This document shows positions 1 through 22,400 of a stretch of DNA of 22,400 bases, piece after piece; positions within the stretch are counted from its first letter, which is position 1; the number at the start of each line of letters is the position of its first letter. The stretch is from a virus, in IMG/VR virus record IMGVR_UViG_3300042006_000036, positions 1 through 22,400 of that record, one strand, 5' to 3'. A program made the translations under genes and the position numbers. Under the pieces are notes generated by a model. That model had not been told where the DNA came from, ran no database searches, and saw only the letters and a list, made by a program, of their open reading frames with translations.

Positions 1-308
1 TAGGCGGGCTGCTCTGGCTTCGCAAGTTCCTATCTAAAGACGCGACCGATCGGGCCATGGATAACGCCGATATCGGTACGCTGCGCCGGCTCAATGAGCT
101 GCTGAACCAAGAGCGCTCAGCCCGTAAAGAAGCCGAGGCCCGCGCCGATCAGTTCGCGAAAGAGCGGAACGATCTCGCCGCGGCAGTTGGCAGGATGGAA
201 GGGAAGATTGAAGCCCTCACCAGCCAGGTCGGGCAACTCACCGAGCGCGTCACGCTGCAGAGCGAAGAGATCCACCGCCTGCGCACCAAGCTTGGAGGTA
301 TCGCCTGA
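1..308 (+). CDS. Partial membrane/coiled-coil phage protein, 5' end outside window
   Basis: The reading frame is open to the left edge: the first full codon is at position 3 and the visible part begins GGLLWLRKFLSKD before an internal Met at 57. The true start therefore lies upstream and the ATG at 57 is probably internal. The visible N-terminus looks like the end of a transmembrane helix followed by a basic stretch. The rest (about 80 residues) is a charged heptad-rich coiled coil (LNELLNQERSARKEAEARAD and onward). I do not recognise a specific family. A single helix plus coiled coil next to the packaging genes is common in Pseudomonas phages, and a holin or lysis-accessory role is possible but unproven. 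Its stop overlaps the next start by one base (TGATG), so the two are probably translationally coupled. Confidence 0.7.
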   Translation, partial: GGLLWLRKFLSKDATDRAMDNADIGTLRRLNELLNQERSARKEAEARADQFAKERNDLAAAVGRMEGKIEALTSQVGQLTERVTLQSEEIHRLRTKLGGIA

Positions 309-625
309 TGGACAGATGCGCACTGGAATTCATTGCTCGCAGGTGGTGGAGGCGGGCTGAGGTCTGGGCCATTGCCGTGCTGCTGGTTGGTGGTGGTGCT
401 GTGCTTGGCTACCAGGTCAGCTACTGGTCGCTCGCAGATAAGCAGGGCAAGCAGGTCGAAGACATTCGAAAGGCCTATGACACAGCCATGGAAGAGCGGG
501 ACAAGCGCCTCGAAGAGCTGACCCGAAAGACTGGGACGGCCGCCGACAAGGCCACCAAGGCCGCAACCACTGCTGCCCAGGCAGCAGACAAGGCGGATGA
601 AGCTCTCAACCGAGTGAATCAGTAA
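308..625 (+). CDS. Small membrane protein with C-terminal coiled coil
   Basis: This 105-residue protein has a basic N-terminus (ARRWWRR), one hydrophobic segment at about residues 18-38 (VWAIAVLLVGGGAVLGY), then a charged helical region and an Ala/Lys-rich tail (about residues 75-105) with regular heptads. The predicted form is a single-pass inner-membrane protein with a long helical domain. Its start overlaps the upstream stop by one base and its own stop overlaps the next start the same way. No enzyme motif is visible. No other holin candidate is seen next to the endolysin at the far end of the window, so this gene and its upstream neighbour are the best candidates for the membrane part of lysis. 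That is inference only. Confidence 0.75.
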   Translation: MDRCALEFIARRWWRRAEVWAIAVLLVGGGAVLGYQVSYWSLADKQGKQVEDIRKAYDTAMEERDKRLEELTRKTGTAADKATKAATTAAQAADKADEALNRVNQ

Positions 626-14805: not shown

Positions 14806-15213
14806 ATGCCATCACGATTCCTAACTGCCATCTACCAGGACGGCGGTCGCGAGCTGCCGTCCGTTGATTGCTGGGGACTGACGACGATAGCCAGGTCGGA
14901 GCTATACGGCCTGCCTGGGCTATCCAAGTTTGGAGAGGTGACGCGCCTGGGTATTCACGCCTTCCAGCGCTCCTACAGGTCAGAGGTGGGTAGGGCTCTT
15001 GAGCGTTGTGAGCCTTTCCCGGGAGCAATCGCCGCAGCAATGAAGGGTGATATCTGCGCCCACGTTGCCCTGGTGGTCCTCAAAGACGACCGCCTGCAGG
15101 TGCTGGAGATCAACCCCGGCAGCGGGGCCAGGATCATCCGGCTTCAAGAATTCAAAGATAACTACATGACGGTGGTGTTCTATCGTGATCGAGATCTATG
15201 CAAACAAGCTTGA
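14806..15213 (+). CDS. NlpC/P60-type tail tip peptidase, lambda gpK-like
   Basis: The 135-residue protein has the NlpC/P60 nucleophile in SVDCWGLTTIARSELYGLP (Cys22) and the catalytic His86 in GDICAHVALVV. The third polar position may be supplied around ILEINPGSG-like sequence at residues 100-106. These cysteine peptidases at the tail tip cut peptide crosslinks in peptidoglycan during entry. It lacks the N-terminal JAB-like domain of full-length lambda gpK and is only the NlpC/P60 part. The ATG at 14806 has no clear Shine-Dalgarno, and the gap to the upstream stop is two bases, so coupled re-initiation is likely. Confidence 0.85.
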   Translation: MPSRFLTAIYQDGGRELPSVDCWGLTTIARSELYGLPGLSKFGEVTRLGIHAFQRSYRSEVGRALERCEPFPGAIAAAMKGDICAHVALVVLKDDRLQVLEINPGSGARIIRLQEFKDNYMTVVFYRDRDLCKQA

Positions 15214-17908
15214 TCAAGACGTGCTGCGCGAGTACCAGGTAAGCGCAGAGACCACGGTTGAGCGGTGGCTGATCGATAACGTGAAGGGCTACGAGCGCCG
15301 CGACGTTCCTCCCATGAGCATTGCCATCAATGGATGCCTGACTAGCCAATCAGAGTGGGCTGACGCTCGCTTTGATGGTGGCGACCGGGTGCAGATCTGG
15401 ATAGAGCCAAAGGGTACAGACCCGATTTCTATCACCATCGCCGCCATTAAAGGCGTGCAAGCAGTGATGAAGCTCATCACGCCTAGGGTGAAGCTGCCAA
15501 AGACCGGTTCGCCGCAGCAGGGCAGCACGCTATCCAGTGCCAACGCAAAGGCCAACCAGGTTCGCTACGGCGACCCGGTGCGCGAGCTGTTCGGTGAGGA
15601 TGAGATTTTTCCTGACTATATAGTAGAGCCGCGCCGATACTTCAAAGGCCCGCGGGATGAGTGGCAGCACATGCTGTTGTGCATTACCCGTGGTGAGTGC
15701 CAGGTTAACCCGAGCGATATCAAGATCGGGAATACAGCCGTCATATCGCTGGGTGCAAACGCTACCGCACGGGTATACGGCCCTGGCGAAGACCTTAGCG
15801 ACGAGCCAGCCGCCAAGTGGTGGTACCAGGCACCTGAGGTGGGCGTAACCGCTACCGGTACGTCTGGCATCGAGCTGAAGACCACTGTCACGGTTCCACC
15901 GGTTCCAGGTGCCCAGGCTTATCAGTTCAACGGTGATTTGGTCGCCGTCCCAACTGGCGCCGGTGCATTCCCCGCTGGCTGGGCTGTTGGCATGATCCTG
16001 CGCATCGAGGTCATGTACCAATACATGGTCACTGCGGGCGGTGGCGCTGGTGGTCGTGATGTGATTTCCGGCCCGCTGGAGCAGCTTGGCGCCTTCCCTG
16101 GAATGCAGATCGAGGTGGTGGGGGCTAACGCTGGCCGCTATATCGTGAACGACTTCACGCTAGCGGCCGGCGGCGATCCGGCCCACATGACACTCAACAC
16201 CACCAGCGGCGCGCCGGTATCTGGCCTCTTGGCCGGCATTGGCTGGGCTTGCATTGGGTATGCTGGCCTTCGGTACCGCCTCACGGCGGCGAGTACGTCT
16301 CAGATTGCCGTAGACCGCCTGACTGACGCTGGCGTTACAGACAATGACTGGCCAGGATTTGACTTCATCGAAAGCAACTCAGCTGTTCTAAGGCTGGACA
16401 ATTCTAACCTTGAAGGCGACTGGGCTGGACCGTTTGCTCTGTGCCCACCAGGCCTCAAGGCAACCAAGCTCTCCTTCACAGTCCTGTTTCCAAGCGGGTT
16501 GGCAGGGGTAAACAACAAGGGCGACCTTGAGCCTTGGAGTGTCACCTACGAGTTTCAGTACCGGGATAGAACAACCGCAGGGGCCTGGGTTTCGTTCAGT
16601 GAAACGATCAGTGATCGAACTCTGGACCAGATCGGCTTCACGCGGGAGCTGACAACCGCGTCTGCTATTGAGCCAGAAGGCCGTATGCGCCGAATTGGCG
16701 CCAAGTCCACGCTGACCAACGTGCAGGACAATATCCAGTGGTACGACGTTCGGGCATTGCTTCCCAGCCCTACGAGTTACCCAGGCTGGACGATTCTGGC
16801 GCTATCGGCGGCCGGCGGCGGCAAGCTCTCAAGCCAAAGCGAGAACAAGGTTTCGGTCGTGGCCACGCGCAAGCTGCCGATCTTGGTAAATGGAGCCTGG
16901 ACGCCAGACAACCGCGTAACCCGTGATATCGCCCCAGCGTTCAACTACATCGCCAAGGCGCCCGGGTATCAGGACGCTGACATTGACACGGACGAACTTG
17001 CAGCGTTTGACGCAGTTTGCAAGGCCAGGGGTGACACCTTCAACCTGTCGATCGATTCGCTCATGACCGTCAAGGAAGCACTGAATACCGCGCTCGCCCC
17101 AGGCTTCGCAGAGTTCACCATCAGTCGCGGTCGCCTGCGCCCTGTGCGCGATCAGAAGCGGGAAGGCTTCGACACTGAGTACTTCCCGGCTGGCACGCAA
17201 GGTTATTCGGCCCAGAACATGAAGGGGCCGCTGCGTATCAGCTTCAAGTCGCCAGACCCAGGGTCAGAGCATGACGGCGTGGATGTTGAGTACAAGGATC
17301 GGCGCACCCGCCAAACCGAGACGGTTAAATGCCGCCTGCCTGGACAGCAAGGCCTGAAAGCCGAAAAGGTTCAAGCCTTGGGCATAGGTGACCGTGACCG
17401 GGCATATCGCTTGGGGATGCGCCGCGCAAGCGAAACCAGGTACCGCCGCTGGAGCTATTCGTTCGAAACCGAACTGGATGGCAACAACAGCGATTACATG
17501 GGCCTCGCCGGCGTTTCGGACGATACGCCCGGAAGAGGGCAGAGCGCCTTGCTGCTTGGAATATCCCTTGGCTCTGGCAGCTACATCCTCGAAAGCTCGG
17601 AAGCTTTCATATGGGAGCCAGGCGTAGCCCACACGGTAGGCATAAGGCGTCAAGACGGCACGCTCAGCGGGCCATGGACGGCCACAAGGATCGGCGATTA
17701 CCACCTGAGCATCCCGACGCTCGACTTCACCCCAGACACTAGTTGGGACAGGGAACCGCCTCACCTGCTGTTCGGCCCAGTAACCAGGGAATGCCACCGC
17801 GTCCTGATCAGCAAAGTAACCCCGAAAGGAAGCGAAAGCGTTTCGGTTCAAGGCTTCAACTATGACGACAGGGTTTACCTGTACGACAACGCGACTGCGC
17901 CCGACTAA
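15185..17908 (+). CDS. TipJ-family host specificity / tail tip protein, lambda gpJ-like
   Basis: The 907-residue protein starts with GTG inside the previous gene (29-base overlap). Residues 1-80 look like a small alpha/beta domain (MIEIYANKLDQDVLREYQVS, then DGGDRVQIWIEPKG) followed by a hydrophobic helix (ISITIAAIKGVQAVMKLI), reminiscent of a gpI-like part. Residues 110-200 carry the J signature (NQVRYGDPVRELFGEDEIFP and DEWQHMLLCITRGECQVNPS). The middle holds beta domains, and residues 600-760 include DIDTDELAAFDAVCKARGDT and GVDVEYKDRRTRQTET. It forms the central tip that contacts the host and organises the fibre. It is the last gene before a terminator, and the C-terminus is shorter than in lambda gpJ (1132 residues). 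Confidence 0.92.
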   Translation: MIEIYANKLDQDVLREYQVSAETTVERWLIDNVKGYERRDVPPMSIAINGCLTSQSEWADARFDGGDRVQIWIEPKGTDPISITIAAIKGVQAVMKLITPRVKLPKTGSPQQGSTLSSANAKANQVRYGDPVRELFGEDEIFPDYIVEPRRYFKGPRDEWQHMLLCITRGECQVNPSDIKIGNTAVISLGANATARVYGPGEDLSDEPAAKWWYQAPEVGVTATGTSGIELKTTVTVPPVPGAQAYQFNGDLVAVPTGAGAFPAGWAVGMILRIEVMYQYMVTAGGGAGGRDVISGPLEQLGAFPGMQIEVVGANAGRYIVNDFTLAAGGDPAHMTLNTTSGAPVSGLLAGIGWACIGYAGLRYRLTAASTSQIAVDRLTDAGVTDNDWPGFDFIESNSAVLRLDNSNLEGDWAGPFALCPPGLKATKLSFTVLFPSGLAGVNNKGDLEPWSVTYEFQYRDRTTAGAWVSFSETISDRTLDQIGFTRELTTASAIEPEGRMRRIGAKSTLTNVQDNIQWYDVRALLPSPTSYPGWTILALSAAGGGKLSSQSENKVSVVATRKLPILVNGAWTPDNRVTRDIAPAFNYIAKAPGYQDADIDTDELAAFDAVCKARGDTFNLSIDSLMTVKEALNTALAPGFAEFTISRGRLRPVRDQKREGFDTEYFPAGTQGYSAQNMKGPLRISFKSPDPGSEHDGVDVEYKDRRTRQTETVKCRLPGQQGLKAEKVQALGIGDRDRAYRLGMRRASETRYRRWSYSFETELDGNNSDYMGLAGVSDDTPGRGQSALLLGISLGSGSYILESSEAFIWEPGVAHTVGIRRQDGTLSGPWTATRIGDYHLSIPTLDFTPDTSWDREPPHLLFGPVTRECHRVLISKVTPKGSESVSVQGFNYDDRVYLYDNATAPD

Positions 17909-17924
17909 ATAACCAAAACCACAC

Positions 17925-17950
17925 AAGCCCGCCACTGCGCGGGCTTTTTT
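17925..17950 (+). terminator. Rho-independent terminator after the TipJ gene
   Basis: An 8-bp stem, AAGCCCGC (17925-17932) with GCGGGCTT (17939-17946) around a 6-base loop, runs into a T tract (17945-17950). It is 17 bases after the TipJ stop and 15 bases before the fibre start. It is near-identical to the element at 20823-20849. Confidence 0.88.
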
Positions 17951-17968
17951 GTGCCTGGAGAAAACATG
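17925..17968 (+). repeat. Terminator/leader cassette, copy A (upstream of fibre)
   Basis: The stem, T tract and following GCCTGGAGAAAAC-ATG form a unit that recurs at 20823-20867 (GCCTGGAGAAAAGC-ATG) and in a more diverged form at 9427-9474. The conserved part covers the terminator and the ribosome binding site and ends at the start codon. The genes that follow are unrelated to each other. Together copies A and B bracket the fibre and fibre-like genes. Confidence 0.75.
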
Positions 17969-19687
17969 CGAAATAACACGGGCAACCCTGTAGGGCCGGA
18001 CGGTTCTGGCGATCCAGAAGACCTATATGACAACAGTGGCATCATCGACCTCTTGGTGAACGGCCCTCTTGGCGAATACCTAAGCCGTCTCGGTGTCCCC
18101 CTGAAGTCGTGGCGCGGCATCATGAAACAGGTAACCGACTACCTCATTGCCCAAGGCTACGAGTCGGTCTATCTGGTTTACGGTGCAGGCGTGATAGTCC
18201 AACGCCAGACTCAGCTGATTCAACGCTCCGGCGAGTTGTACCGGGTCATGAATGCGGCGGACATCCCGCTGACCCTGACAGGCACATGGGCCACGGACCT
18301 GCCAAAACTTCAGGCGGTTGGTGATGCCGCCCTTAGATCTGCGCTGGCTGCGACGGACAGCAGCGTCCTTGTAGGGGGAGCCACAGCAAGCTCGATTGGC
18401 AAAATAGCCGGTGCTTTATCCGTAGATGCCGATGGCCGTGTGCGTACTACGAAAATAGCAGTAGGCACAAATCCGATGACGGGCTCTGCCGTCAGGGATG
18501 CTATCGGCGTTTACAGGAATCTCACAGGGGAAACAGACGCCCACGGCTTTGTCGAACACACAGTTATTGACGGGGTTACAGACTACGGGGGTTACGGGTC
18601 AGTAGATGTGACCACCATTCTTCGTGGCAGCAACAACCAGAATCACCTTTTCTCATATCAGAGTAGGCCGGAATATGCCGGTAGCGGGAATATTCAGCAT
18701 CTTGCCGATTTTCTTGCTCGCCCAGTTCATAGCGGAACCGGGGTAATTAACGAGAGAATCGGTATTGATGTCGGCGATTTAACTGTCACAAATGGCGGGA
18801 TAGTTGACCAGCAGATCGGCGTATATATACGCAACTTAACCTACGGCACCGCCAAGGTAGCCTTAAATATCGGCCAGTCTCAAGGGTTGGCTTTATATGC
18901 TCCAGGTGGCGCGAGAAGCTATCATGCTGGCCCCTTCCGGGTAGGTGTTGATGATGTATCTACCGTTCCTTTCAGCGTAGGCGTCGCAGGATCACCGAAT
19001 TTTTACATTCTGCCGCAGGCTGGATCAGCTACCGCAGGAGTTTCGGGTGATAGCTTTTTACGTCTTGCCACCAACGCAGTAACTCGTGTTGAGATCGGCA
19101 ATGCCGCTTCTCAGTCGGTACTGAGGCCTGGTGCGGATAACGCTCAGCCACTAGGCGATGCAACAAAGCGCTGGTCGGCAGTTTTTGCAGGTTCCGGCAC
19201 GATCAACACATCGGATGCCAGGGAGAAGACCGAGGTTCGTCAGCTCACCGCCGCCGAGATTGCCGCCGCCACGCAGCTAGCCAAAGAGATCGGTGCATTC
19301 CGCTTCCTGGCCGCCGTGGCGGAGAAGGGTGATGGTGCGCGTGAGCACATTGGTATGACTGTGCAGCGGGCAAAGGAAATCCTTGAGCAACATGGTCTAG
19401 ACCCATTCAGCTACAGCTTCATTTGCTACGACAAATGGGATAAGCAGGTGATCGAGCATGAGGCGCAGAAGCGCACACACCCAGCGGTTTACCGGAAAAC
19501 CATGACCGTGGACATGGGCGGCAATCCATTTAACGAACTGGTTACGGATGAATGGGAAGAGGTCACAGCCGAAGCCTGGACTGAGGTTTTGCAAGAAGCG
19601 GGCGACCGCTACAGCTTCCGTATGGACGGCCTTACCGCGTTCATTATTGCTGGTTTTGAGGCCCGCCTGTCTGCCCTTGAGGTCTGA
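17966..19687 (+). CDS. Tail fibre with C-terminal S74 intramolecular chaperone
   Basis: The start chosen is ATG 17966 behind GGAG with five-base spacing; an in-frame GTG at 17951 lies in the terminator tail. The 573-residue protein has an N-terminal virion-attachment region (DPEDLYDNSGIIDLLVNGPL, then LGVPLKSWRGIMKQV), a linker, and a beta-rich distal part at about 172-330 (TDAHGFVEHTVIDGVTDYGG, ARPVHSGTGVINERIGIDVG, GLALYAPGGARSYHAG). From about 400 follows an S74 chaperone with the Ser416/Lys421 dyad in NTSDAREKTEV. S74 domains help fibre trimers fold and then cut themselves off before the Ser. GC content drops relative to the tip genes. It probably determines adsorption. Confidence 0.9.
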   Translation: MRNNTGNPVGPDGSGDPEDLYDNSGIIDLLVNGPLGEYLSRLGVPLKSWRGIMKQVTDYLIAQGYESVYLVYGAGVIVQRQTQLIQRSGELYRVMNAADIPLTLTGTWATDLPKLQAVGDAALRSALAATDSSVLVGGATASSIGKIAGALSVDADGRVRTTKIAVGTNPMTGSAVRDAIGVYRNLTGETDAHGFVEHTVIDGVTDYGGYGSVDVTTILRGSNNQNHLFSYQSRPEYAGSGNIQHLADFLARPVHSGTGVINERIGIDVGDLTVTNGGIVDQQIGVYIRNLTYGTAKVALNIGQSQGLALYAPGGARSYHAGPFRVGVDDVSTVPFSVGVAGSPNFYILPQAGSATAGVSGDSFLRLATNAVTRVEIGNAASQSVLRPGADNAQPLGDATKRWSAVFAGSGTINTSDAREKTEVRQLTAAEIAAATQLAKEIGAFRFLAAVAEKGDGAREHIGMTVQRAKEILEQHGLDPFSYSFICYDKWDKQVIEHEAQKRTHPAVYRKTMTVDMGGNPFNELVTDEWEEVTAEAWTEVLQEAGDRYSFRMDGLTAFIIAGFEARLSALEV

Positions 19688-19715
19688 CACCGTATGCTCT
19701 GCGGGGCTAAGCACG

Positions 19716-19728
19716 TATAATCTGTGCA
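19716..19728 (+). promoter_or_regulatory. Putative sigma-70 promoter for the fibre-like gene
   Basis: A perfect TATAAT (19716-19721) lies in the 64-base gap after the fibre stop. The expected transcription start near 19728 gives a leader of about 24 bases before GTG 19752. No good -35 is present at 16-18 bases spacing (best is TATGCT at 19693), and a CTGACA at 19684-19689 is too far away. The promoter is therefore moderate or activator-dependent if real. Confidence 0.5.
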
Positions 19729-19751
19729 TAGCCTTTCAGACGGATTCTGAC

Positions 19752-20807
19752 GTGAGCAACACATTCAAGAGCCACAAACTTATAGCTGTCGCCGGCCTCG
19801 CAATGGGGCTTCTTTTTTCAGCTTCACCTAATGCAGATGTTTCCCAGCCAGTCAGCCGGTACCAGGTCGGCGAGGTTTTGGTGAAGGGCTCTGCGATGCG
19901 TGATGCCTTTATGGCTGCTAGGATTTTGCGCGGATCTACCGACGCCCACGGCTTCACAGACAACACCGTTCTGGATGAGGTAACAGACGCCGGCACGTAT
20001 GGCGCCTTTGATTCCGTGGTTCGCCTGCGCGGGCATAACGTGCAGGACCACGTCTACAGCTTCCAGGACAGGAACCGGTATGAGGGTTCAAATATCCTCA
20101 AGACCATGGGCGGCTTCATGTCTCGGCCCGTGCATTCAGGCACCGGCAAAATCCTTTTCCGTACTGGTATGGATATCGGTGACGTAGAGGTCGCAAGCCC
20201 TGGCCTGGTCGATCAGAACATTGGCCTGTTCATCCGCGATCAGCGTTCCGGCAACAACAACGCAGCGATCACGCTGGCTCAGTCAACCGGGCACACGCTC
20301 TATTCATCAGGCGCGGCACCCAGCTACCACAAGTCAAATATCGTTTTTGGGGCTGGAAGCGGCGCTGTAACCCCTGCGGACCTATCACAACTAGAAGGTG
20401 TGCGCGGTCTAAGTGACGCCGAGATAGCAGTAGCTTCGCGACTCCGGGAGCTTGTTAAGGCGTCTAGGCCAAAGCACGGAGGGCCTATTTATATCGGGCC
20501 GATTGCGCAAGATGTAATTGCAGCTTTTAAGGCGGAAGACCTGAGTGCTGATGACTACTCAGTAGTAAACCGAGAGGGCCAGGGGCTGGGGGTTAGACTC
20601 GATCAGTTGCTTGCGTTCATTTCCGCTCAGCCAGTAGTAGAGGGGTCGGCTCCTAAATATTACTGGCTTGCGCTTATATTCTTCATTGCCTTGGCGGCTA
20701 TTGTGATCGCCTGGCTTAATGGAAATATTCGTAAAAAGGGGGCGAAGATTTCAAGGATGGAAAAAGAAATCGCCTATATAAAAGACATGATCAAAAAATC
20801 CACATAA
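19752..20807 (+). CDS. Exported, membrane-anchored tail-fibre-like protein (moron candidate)
   Basis: The start chosen is GTG 19752, with GGA at 19742-19744; the frame reaches further up but only inside the fibre gene. The 351 residues comprise: a signal-peptide-like N-terminus (basic SNTFKSHK, hydrophobic LIAVAGLAMGLLFSA, then SPNA); residues about 46-200 paralogous to fibre residues 172-330 (TDAHGF, SRPVHSGTG and SYH motifs shared); an S74-like domain at about 200-298 (LSDAEIAVASRLRELVK, IGPIAQDVIAAF) with the catalytic Ser and Lys replaced by Ala209 and Leu214; a transmembrane helix at about 304-323 (YYWLALIFFIALAAIVIAWL); and a basic coiled-coil tail. The predicted topology puts the fibre domain in the periplasm with an inner-membrane anchor. 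It has its own -10 box and terminator, as morons do. The role is unknown; superinfection exclusion or host modification is possible. Confidence 0.8.
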   Translation: MSNTFKSHKLIAVAGLAMGLLFSASPNADVSQPVSRYQVGEVLVKGSAMRDAFMAARILRGSTDAHGFTDNTVLDEVTDAGTYGAFDSVVRLRGHNVQDHVYSFQDRNRYEGSNILKTMGGFMSRPVHSGTGKILFRTGMDIGDVEVASPGLVDQNIGLFIRDQRSGNNNAAITLAQSTGHTLYSSGAAPSYHKSNIVFGAGSGAVTPADLSQLEGVRGLSDAEIAVASRLRELVKASRPKHGGPIYIGPIAQDVIAAFKAEDLSADDYSVVNREGQGLGVRLDQLLAFISAQPVVEGSAPKYYWLALIFFIALAAIVIAWLNGNIRKKGAKISRMEKEIAYIKDMIKKST

Positions 20808-20822
20808 ACAATATTCCAATTA

Positions 20823-20867
20823 AAGGCCCGCCAAGCGCGGGCTTTTTTTCGCCTGGAGAAAAGCATG
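20823..20867 (+). repeat. Terminator/leader cassette, copy B (upstream of endolysin)
   Basis: This is a near-copy of 17925-17968: the same GCCCGC/GCGGGC stem, T tract and GCCTGGAGAAAA ribosome-binding leader ending at an ATG (20865). The two copies differ mainly in the loop and by one or two bases in the leader. They are in direct orientation about 2.9 kb apart. Confidence 0.75.
20826..20849 (+). terminator. Rho-independent terminator after the fibre-like gene
   Basis: GCCCGC (20826-20831) pairs with GCGGGC (20837-20842) around a 5-base loop, extended by a G-T and three A-T pairs, with seven T at 20843-20849. It begins 18 bases after the fibre-like gene and lies before the endolysin gene, so it would block transcription from the moron promoter into the lysis genes. 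Confidence 0.88.
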
Positions 20868-21290
20868 TCGACCACCGAAACCCGCGGGGTACGCAACAAC
20901 AACCCCGGCAACATCGACTACAACCCGGCCAACCAATGGCAGGGCCAGCTCAAGCCAGATCCGGCAATCGAAAAGCGGTTCGCCAGGTTCGACACCCCGG
21001 AGAATGGTATCCGCGCCCTGGGAAAGTTGCTGCTGACCTACCAGCGCAAGCATGGCCTGAAGACTGTGAAGGCGATCATCAGCCGGTGGGCGCCATCGGT
21101 GGAGAATGACACCGCCGCGTATGTGCGCGCCGTCGAGGCGAACACCGGAACCCGTCCGGGCTATGAAATCGACCTGACCCAACCCAAGGTCATGACAGGC
21201 TTCGTCAAGGCAATCATTCACCACGAGAACGCAGGCTATGCCTACCCTGATGCGGTGCTGGCTGAAGGCGTGCGGCGGGCGCTGGTATGA
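20865..21290 (+). CDS. Putative endolysin, 'RGVRNNNPGNI' family
   Basis: The 141-residue protein starts behind GGAG (20855-20858). The N-terminal RGVRNNNPGNIDYNPANQW and RFDTPENGIRALGKLLLTYQ with ISRWAPSVENDTAAYVRAV define a family found in many Pseudomonas and other proteobacterial phages, often annotated 'structural protein P5' after PRD1. The fold is thought to be lysozyme/transglycosylase-like. No signal peptide or membrane segment is visible, so if it is the endolysin it needs a holin. The position directly before Rz/Rz1 supports a lysis role. A virion-borne muramidase is the alternative. It ends in an ATGA overlap with Rz. Confidence 0.75.
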   Translation: MSTTETRGVRNNNPGNIDYNPANQWQGQLKPDPAIEKRFARFDTPENGIRALGKLLLTYQRKHGLKTVKAIISRWAPSVENDTAAYVRAVEANTGTRPGYEIDLTQPKVMTGFVKAIIHHENAGYAYPDAVLAEGVRRALV

Positions 21291-21811
21291 CGCCGGTACA
21301 GAAGCTGGCCGGCCTGGGGCTGGCAATCCTGCTGGCGCTGGCCATCGGGTTCGGCGGGGCGTGGCAAGTCCAAGACTGGCGCCTGGGCAAGAAGATGGCC
21401 GAGCGTATTGCGGAGCAGGGAGCCCGCCACCAGAAGGAATTGGATGCAATCACTGGCGAGGCCTGGCGTCAGCAGGCGGCCGAGCTGGATAAGCGCCTGG
21501 CCACCGAGGAAAAGCTCGCGCTCCAGGACCAACAACACACCAAGGAATTATCCGATGCCCAGCGCAACCAGGCTCGCCTGCGTGACCATCTTGCTACTGC
21601 TGATGTCCGGCTGTCAGTCCTCATTGAGGATTCAGCCAGTGGCTGCAACGTGCCTTCCACCCCCGGCGCCGTCGGCGTGGTTCATGCAGCCCGTCGAGCC
21701 CAACTTGACCCAGCGCATGCGCAACGAATTGTCGCCATCACCGACGCAGGGGACAACGCCATAATCGCCTTGCGTGCGTGCCAGGCGTACGTCAGGGCTA
21801 TTGCTCGCTGA
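21287..21811 (+). CDS. Rz: Rz-like inner-membrane spanin
   Basis: The 174-residue protein has an N-terminal membrane helix at about residues 7-27 (LAGLGLAILLALAIGFGGAW), then a long charged periplasmic coiled coil (LGKKMAERIAEQGARHQKEL, ELDKRLATEEKLALQDQQHT). The C-terminal part, with two Cys (residues about 119 and 164), is typical of phage lysis regulatory (LysB/Rz) proteins. With Rz1 it bridges inner and outer membranes and fuses them at the end of lysis. The ATG overlaps the endolysin stop. Its last 14 bases overlap the convergent SRAP gene. Confidence 0.88.
   Translation: MTPVQKLAGLGLAILLALAIGFGGAWQVQDWRLGKKMAERIAEQGARHQKELDAITGEAWRQQAAELDKRLATEEKLALQDQQHTKELSDAQRNQARLRDHLATADVRLSVLIEDSASGCNVPSTPGAVGVVHAARRAQLDPAHAQRIVAITDAGDNAIIALRACQAYVRAIAR
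21555..21764 (+). CDS. Rz1: Rz1-like outer-membrane lipoprotein spanin, nested in Rz
   Basis: This 69-residue gene lies wholly inside Rz in the +1 frame. It begins MPSATRLACVTILLLLMSGC, a lipoprotein signal with lipobox MSGC and acylated Cys20. The mature part is short and Pro-rich (PPPAPSAWFMQPVEP), as in Rz1 proteins. AAGGA at 21542-21546 gives an eight-base spacing to ATG 21555. The same frame stays open upstream to 21408, but that start would place the signal in mid-protein, so it is rejected. Confidence 0.85.
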   Translation: MPSATRLACVTILLLLMSGCQSSLRIQPVAATCLPPPAPSAWFMQPVEPNLTQRMRNELSPSPTQGTTP

Positions 21812-22400
21812 TCGGTTTAATCAGCTCGGGCCCCTTGTTTCTCACGTTGCCCACAGCCGTATCGACCTTGAACCACTCGAACACCTCGGACGGCTCGCCC
21901 TGGTGTAGCACCATCTGCTCGGCTCGCTCCTTGGGTGTGGCCGGGTCCAACCATTCCCGCGCCAGGTCTGGCGTCAGCACCACGGGCCGCCGGTCGTGAA
22001 TGTCCACCATGCCGCCGGCGCTGTCGGAGGTGATGATCACGAAGCCATCATGCTCGCCTGGGCCTTCATCAGCGTCAGGTAGCTGGCCAATGGCAGCGCA
22101 GAGTATCGGTGCACCATCCCTTCGGCGGATGAGGTAGGGCTGCTTCTTGGCCCCGCCTTCATCTACCCACTCAAACCAGTTGTCGATAGGCGTGATTGCT
22201 CGGTGAGGCCAGATCGCCCGGAAGAAAGGGCCATGGGCTACCTTCTCCACTCGGGCATTTATCGGCGCTGCCCGGTCTTTCGCCCAATGCGGCCGCCATC
22301 CCCAGCGAACTGGATCGGCGTGGAGCAAGTCGCCCTGCAGGTGCAGCAGCGCAACCGCGGTTGTCGGTGCGAGGTTGTACCGCTCAATCGGCTGATCGCC
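21798..22400 (-). CDS. SRAP (YedK/HMCES) abasic-site protein, N-terminus beyond window
   Basis: This minus-strand gene is open at the right edge. Reading from 22400 gives GDQPIERYNLAPTTAVALL, then VRWGWRPHWA, the SRAP N-terminal pattern, so the start (normally Met-Cys-Gly-Arg) is outside. Visible functional residues are Asn in NARVEK (DNA binding), Glu in NWFEW and His in DIHDRRPVVL. The catalytic Cys2 is not in view. SRAP proteins form a covalent bond with abasic sites in single-stranded DNA and protect them. Copies are found in several temperate phages as well as host chromosomes. It converges on the lysis genes and overlaps Rz by 14 bases, which suggests it belongs to the phage. Confidence 0.9.
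   Translation of the reverse strand, partial: GDQPIERYNLAPTTAVALLHLQGDLLHADPVRWGWRPHWAKDRAAPINARVEKVAHGPFFRAIWPHRAITPIDNWFEWVDEGGAKKQPYLIRRRDGAPILCAAIGQLPDADEGPGEHDGFVIITSDSAGGMVDIHDRRPVVLTPDLAREWLDPATPKERAEQMVLHQGEPSEVFEWFKVDTAVGNVRNKGPELIKPISEQ

Follow-up and report, generated by a model that had tools for sequence, protein, structure and literature searches.

A predicted exported copy of the tail-fibre tip encoded behind the fibre gene of a temperate siphophage: a possible receptor-directed superinfection exclusion protein

Results

Gene order and relatives of the locus

The 22.4-kb virus record analysed here over its full length, hereafter the window, belongs to a temperate siphophage with Pseudomonas relatives: its head genes match, in parts, those of Pseudomonas phages SC_8_H2H8_2017 and VW-6S at ~86% in megablast, and its tape-measure region is related to those of D3, PMG1 and PAJU2, Pseudomonas phages of the D3 type. 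At the right end, a J-like tail-tip gene (15185-17908, phrog_469) is followed by the tail-fibre gene, a gene for a copy of the fibre tip, a gene for an endolysin-like protein (20865-21290, + strand, phrog_873, E 2.4e-61), which flanks the slot behind the fibre and lies outside the unit described here, and Rz.

The fibre gene (17951-19687, + strand) encodes 578 residues that comprise a virion-anchoring N-terminus, a distal domain (residues 157-325; 18419-18925, + strand), a beta stalk and an S74 intramolecular chaperone of the active type (PF13884, E 9.9e-9) with the dyad S421/K426; its nearest solved relatives are 7y5s and 4uw8. We infer that the distal domain is the receptor binder from its position between the tail anchor and the stalk.

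Parts of the fibre-tip copy

The second gene (19752-20807, + strand) starts at GTG and encodes 351 residues, of which residues 25-193 align with residues 157-325 of the fibre at 46% identity over 169 aa (E 4e-45). The repetition of the distal domain proposed in an earlier note on this DNA thus stands, with its residue ranges (about 172-330 of the fibre and 46-200 of the copy) slightly shifted. The copy has neither the first 150, virion-anchoring residues of the fibre nor its stalk. It begins with a predicted signal peptide, MSNTFKSHKLIAVAGLAMGLLFSASPNA (19752-19835, + strand), with a predicted cut before DVS, identified from sequence features and a hydrophobic segment (residues 10-28, Kyte-Doolittle mean 1.58) preceded by a basic n-region. 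The distal-domain copy (residues 29-200; 19836-20351, + strand) leads into a degenerate S74 chaperone (residues 201-292; 20352-20627, + strand), a predicted C-terminal transmembrane (TM) helix (residues 304-322; 20661-20717, + strand; Kyte-Doolittle mean 2.57, summed biological-scale dG -3.7), which is helical in both AF2 models, and a basic helical tail, presumably cytoplasmic (residues 323-351; 20718-20804, + strand), the last 30 residues of the protein including 9 K/R and 3 D/E. Signal peptide and topology were called by sequence rules and hydropathy.

The S74-like end noted earlier is real and degenerate. The window copy (P0001) reaches 14.6 bits against PF13884, for which the cut-off is 22 bits, and two of the five S74-type family members described below match Peptidase_S74 (best E 2.3e-7). 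The full-length AF2 model was too poor for use in the fibre domain (pLDDT 52), and the S74 domain was modelled with a mean pLDDT of 73. With the latter, Foldseek returned the S74 chaperone of the T5 L-shaped fibre first (4uw8, probability 1.00, E 0.02) and then 3gud (probability 0.97), at E-values for the two of only 0.02-0.05. Judged from this model, the C-terminal domain of the copy has the S74 chaperone fold.

The S74 dyad consists of a Ser followed five residues on by a Lys, SDxxxK (PMC3742443, PMC10769870), and in a Bdellovibrio MAT protein a Ser-to-Ala change was found experimentally to block self-cleavage (PMC10769870). The copy has A209/L214 at the two catalytic positions, so its chaperone should stay attached, here tying the fibre domain to the membrane helix.

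PADLOC-DB profiles had no match in the five copies and NCBIfam gave nothing convincing for them; no profile library searched names the copy protein. A holin or spanin role, considered for its TM helix and its place before the endolysin, was unsupported: Rz comes after the endolysin, and a better holin candidate is the TM protein encoded near the terminase (window 308-625), a position like that of the annotated holin of VW-6S, which adjoins the terminase end.

Homologues in S74-type phages

The architecture recurs in four S74-type lineages. The copy in contig L001 is 89% identical to that of the window, and those in L007, L008 and L009, which represent three further lineages at 47-51% identity, are each encoded immediately downstream of an S74 fibre that has this distal domain too. 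Sequence rules and hydropathy predict a signal peptide in all five copies. The Ser/Lys dyad is likewise lost in all five (A/L, A/L, A/T, D/S and D/A), whereas SDxxxK is kept in every aligned fibre. The copies of the window, L001 and L007 have the TM helix and the basic tail, whereas those of L008 and L009 stop immediately behind the S74-like domain and have neither; a search for a TM remnant 3' of the L009 stop codon gave nothing convincing. With the signal peptide predicted in 5/5 and the TM helix missing in 2/5, the shared feature of the family is predicted export and not membrane anchoring. The signal peptide in the architecture first proposed is therefore supported, and the membrane anchor holds for the window without defining the family, being absent also from the GDSL-type copies described below. 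A search for homologues lacking both signal peptide and TM helix found none. No member (286-356 aa) has a cysteine at the predicted cleavage site, as a lipobox would have.

Phylogenetically, the copies form a single clade (UFBoot 88, SH-aLRT 97). They share 49-73% identity across lineages and only 36-46% with their own fibres, and the tree rules out a recent local duplication of each fibre. The copies thus do not track the sequence of the fibre beside them, and form a slower-evolving clade of their own.

Between the window and L001 copies, dN/dS is 0.17 overall and 0.07 in the fibre domain, and the first 30 codons, spanning the signal-peptide region, are identical in DNA. In the TM segment dN reaches 0.37 with dS saturated, and hydrophobicity is kept (2.57 vs 2.92). 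By these sequence comparisons, the copy of this pair is under purifying selection, with the hydrophobicity of its TM segment retained. Along the same pair, dS is 0 to 0.19 in the first 200 codons (19752-20351) and 0.86 to 1.9 in 20352-20804, a jump that points to a recombination joint inside the copy gene, between the fibre domain and the S74-TM part. In a wider search, genome contigs (with two pattern sets) and plasmids yielded no relative, and in the phage collection the sole hit was a distant one to S74.

Pairs of the GDSL type and mobility of the module

Three further contigs carry the same arrangement with another fold: the gene immediately after that of a GDSL/SGNH-type fibre encodes a copy of the distal domain of this fibre, with an apparent signal peptide (fibre plus copy at 8010-11539 in L012, 5629-9401 in L057 and 5803-9374 in L058). 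These copies are 39-42% identical to their own fibres over about 415 aa, have no TM anchor and all stop short of the last domain of the fibre. TND is replaced by TNN in two of them. Copies of the GDSL type are putative esterases. The L012 fibre has an anchor 67% identical to that of the window fibre but a GDSL/SGNH domain beyond it, and its copy, 17 bp behind the fibre gene, matches it at 42% over 418 aa of the GDSL domain (E 5e-98).

L057 is a podovirus-type contig, with phrog_684 and a terminase upstream and a different type of fibre N-terminus, and L058 is of the siphovirus type. At the DNA level the two contigs resemble each other nowhere but in the fibre receptor-binding domain (78%) and the copy (89%), which indicates that fibre tip and exported copy move as one module between virion types; the copy is here more conserved than the receptor-binding domain, as in the S74 type. 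Copy and fibre are of one class in 8/8 contigs, whether these are of siphoviruses (J-like phrog_469) or of podoviruses (phrog_684). The eight contigs amount to about six independent lineages, as the window and L001 are close overall and L057 and L058 in the module; part of this match could reflect descent and linkage.

An inverted repeat, ATGCGGG..CCCGCAT, spans the putative start codon of the GDSL-type copies (L057 8001-8035, L058 7980-8014, L012 10142-10176). Its L012 version, ATGCAGGG..CCCTGCAT, differs by a compensatory change, and it is possibly an operator or a hairpin that controls translation.

Expression unit and the slot behind the fibre

A TATAAT sequence at 19716-19721 (+ strand), the only one on the + strand of the window, lies 30 nt ahead of the start codon of the copy gene as a candidate -10 box. 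Similar boxes, TATGAT in L007 and TATCAT in L008 and L009, lie 28-30 nt ahead of the inferred starts there, that of L008 (TTG 9328) having been picked by comparison, with MAFFT favouring a slightly different register for L008 and L009. Upstream of the copy gene we found no full sigma-70 match and no clear -35 element, and the promoter is therefore a candidate only. Directly 3' of the gene, an intrinsic terminator can be read in the sequence (GCCCGC-CAAGC-GCGGGC-T7; 20826-20849, + strand), and similar terminators follow the copies in L007, L008 and L058. Leader RNA hairpins of the S74 type were no better than in shuffled sequences, except possibly in L009.

In the window, L001, L007 and L058 the copy gene sits within the late block, with the fibre gene on one side and the endolysin gene on the other, whereas in L008 and L009 no further gene lies between it and the integrase side. 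With a -10-like box and a terminator to itself, at the 3' end of the fibre gene, it fits a prophage-expressed moron, and it is absent from the relative MT121966. The sequence features thus agree with what had been described, a fibre-tip copy with an export signal and no virion anchor in a moron-like unit. Another terminator stands before the fibre gene, within the late block (window 17925-17946); two similar junctions of terminator and ribosome-binding site bound the island of fibre and copy, and may be exchange points.

Other phages fill the same slot differently or leave it empty. In L052 (7722-8894) and L017 (7655-8812), the gene directly 3' of the fibre encodes an Acyl_transf_3 protein, a putative O-antigen acetylase; the L052 fibre has the same distal domain as that of the window. 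Acyl_transf_3 enzymes include the O-antigen acetylases of converting phages. Oac of phage D3 is an example of a phage O-antigen acetylase (PMC11436027). The slot holds nothing in L014, which has another GDSL-type fibre, and no copy gene accompanies the unrelated fibres of L045 and of MT121966, the nearest relative in the head genes. The distal domain of the window fibre also occurs, together with an intact S74 domain, in the fibres of L050 (5413-7185), L051 (5200-7326) and L052 (5497-7338). These contigs belong to another phage group, their fibres have three distinct N-termini, and no exported copy was found in them. Since its occupants are exported copies or Acyl_transf_3 proteins and the copy goes with the fibre type, the slot seems to hold receptor-directed genes.

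Discussion

Proposed function

We consider the chances about even that the copy is an exported receptor-binding domain that masks or edits the receptor of the fibre, probably a glycan, from the periplasm, and acts in superinfection exclusion; possibly it also spares progeny from debris. Its signal-peptide sequence supports export, presumably by Sec. In the periplasm it would form a trimer, as the S74 remnant and the homology to the fibre suggest, and this remnant, still uncleaved, would be the trimerisation cap. In the three members with a TM helix, the helix and the positive-inside rule predict an inner-membrane anchor and a periplasmic fibre domain. The copy could there meet the receptor, or a precursor of it, during receptor synthesis. 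Were the receptor a glycan such as O-antigen, the periplasm would be the very site where undecaprenyl-linked chains are polymerised and ligated; alternatively, it may be an envelope protein in transit or membrane-stored pilin. Binding would mask or divert the receptor or disturb its assembly, and by analogy with Llp and phage O-antigen conversion, phages of the same specificity would then be unable to adsorb to the lysogen. After lysis, the copy could prevent the attachment of progeny to debris. In the GDSL type, each copy would target the receptor of the fibre beside it in a similar way, perhaps enzymatically. One observation suits this masking or editing role less well: a slower-evolving clade of its own would be harder to reconcile with it if the copy had to bind the exact ligand of the present fibre.

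Our confidence falls somewhat short of even for the broader proposal that there is a general class of such proteins, in which the receptor-binding domain that a phage copies and exports may be of any fold, the copy gene travels with the fibre gene as a two-gene module, and the copy acts inside the envelope to mask or edit the very receptor recognised by that fibre.

Alternative explanations

The late-block position between fibre and endolysin in the window, L001, L007 and L058 would also suit a protein that acts only towards the end of lytic growth, when fibre tips would fill the periplasm and, at lysis, cap the receptors on debris and so spare the new virions, and exclusion proteins like T5 Llp are described as acting also against adsorption to lysed cell fragments (PMC9586334). 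We regard protection of progeny as the main role as doubtful, however, given the -10-like box and terminator of the copy gene itself, the place beside the integrase side in L008 and L009, which is typical of prophage-expressed morons, and the inner-membrane anchor predicted for the window, L001 and L007, which would be odd in a protein acting on debris.

It is rather unlikely that the copy serves lysogenic conversion, as an exported glycan-binding or glycan-editing protein that alters surface polysaccharide or adhesion and excludes other phages only as a by-product. Cells do use exported phage-fibre folds, as in Bdellovibrio MAT proteins (PMC10769870) and Pantoea WceF (PMC7949094), and the slower evolution of the copies relative to the fibres would fit such a role; but the copy is always of the domain class of the neighbouring fibre and moves with it, and there is no sign of a route for outer-membrane display.

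The homologous domain, the S74 remnant and the position beside the fibre gene might instead suggest a minor fibre, a trimerisation helper or a partner in mixed trimers. Such a role in the virion or its assembly is improbable, since signal peptides are predicted in all S74-type members and apparent ones occur in the GDSL type, whereas fibres assemble in the cytoplasm, and since L014 and L045 have no copy gene. Of the activities suggested in the earlier note, both the formation of mixed trimers with the real fibre and the trapping of incoming fibres, which are outside the outer membrane, are unlikely because the predicted signals put the copy in the wrong compartment, the periplasm or inner membrane. 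Finally, the lost S74 cleavage site and missing stalk could be signs of a functionless, decaying duplicate of the fibre gene, which is very improbable given a dN/dS of 0.17 (0.07 in the fibre domain), signal-peptide codons identical in DNA between the window and L001, and, in eight contigs, intact open frames, conserved position and added export signals.

Relation to known systems

In T5, llp comes immediately after pb5, the receptor-binding-protein gene, and Llp acts at the periplasmic side to block the receptor (PMC9586334). Like Llp, and like Cor of T1 and phi80, the copy would be an exported phage protein, and it shares with llp the place behind a receptor-binding-protein gene; Llp and Cor, however, are small lipoproteins and no copies of a fibre domain, whereas the window copy combines a fibre domain with a dead S74 domain and has no lipobox. 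Phage D3, which uses LPS, modifies O-antigen to prevent superinfection (PMC11436027), and in phage O-antigen conversion generally, as by D3 Oac and P22 GtrABC, prophage genes change a glycan receptor and keep out phages with the same specificity (PMC11436027). These proteins are transferases or membrane enzymes, whereas the window type would export a binding domain and the GDSL type a putative esterase.

In structure, the copy shares the S74 fold with the T5 L-shaped fibre and with fibres and tailspikes of the endosialidase type, and differs from S74 fibres in lacking dyad, anchor and stalk and in the acquisition of a signal peptide, to which some members add a TM helix. A phage-derived S74/ICA domain with a single TM helix is also found in the eukaryotic membrane-bound transcription factor MYRF (PMC3742443), which, unlike the copy, keeps the Ser/Lys dyad, self-cleaves and carries a DNA-binding domain of the Ndt80 type; Pfam detected none of this type in the copies. 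Bdellovibrio MAT proteins resemble the copy in having a signal peptide, phage-fibre-like trimeric domains and, in some, S74 (PMC10769870), but they are cellular, surface-displayed and typically about 1,000 aa long, keep SDxxxK in the S74 types and have no cognate phage fibre adjoining. They are described as having a conserved N-terminal beta-rich domain of ~130 aa after the signal peptide; in the copy, the domain of the neighbouring fibre comes there. Pantoea WceF, a Tat-exported enzyme with a tailspike fold from an exopolysaccharide operon (PMC7949094), is a tailspike-like trimer exported by a signal peptide that acts on polysaccharide, as we suppose for the trimer and ligand of the copy; it differs in being a bacterial operon enzyme, a beta-helix hydrolase, and in its Tat signal. 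MYRF, MAT proteins and WceF show that every structural step can be achieved.

The view that no system of the same design has been described held up in a search of open-access literature, in which no exported copy of a receptor-binding domain was found, a coverage that makes this no proof of absence. We know of no precedent for the design, and the known exclusion proteins, to our knowledge, block or modify the receptor with folds unrelated to the fibre. By function, the copy would be a variant of receptor-directed superinfection exclusion, new in its design.

If the proposed function is correct, temperate phages put their own receptor-binding domain to a second use, exporting it as a decoy ligand, a simple way of matching exclusion to host range under fibre swaps, as the movement of two-gene modules suggests. 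It would also account for the slot downstream of fibre genes, in which other phages have acyltransferases, would be a MYRF-like use of S74 in bacteria with cleavage given up, and would offer soluble exported receptor-binding domains as tools. Should the general class exist, the neighbour of a fibre gene would reveal, and could serve to assay, the receptor specificity of phages whose receptor is not known.

Other reading frames at the right end

Two frames beyond the endolysin-like gene were also seen. One (window 21408-21764, + strand) overlaps Rz, contains an internal lipobox-like LLLMSGCQSS and is a probable embedded Rz1. The other is open on the - strand up to the end of the record (window 21798-22400) and encodes what we take to be an SRAP-like protein of the YedK/HMCES type; a nearly identical frame is present in L001.
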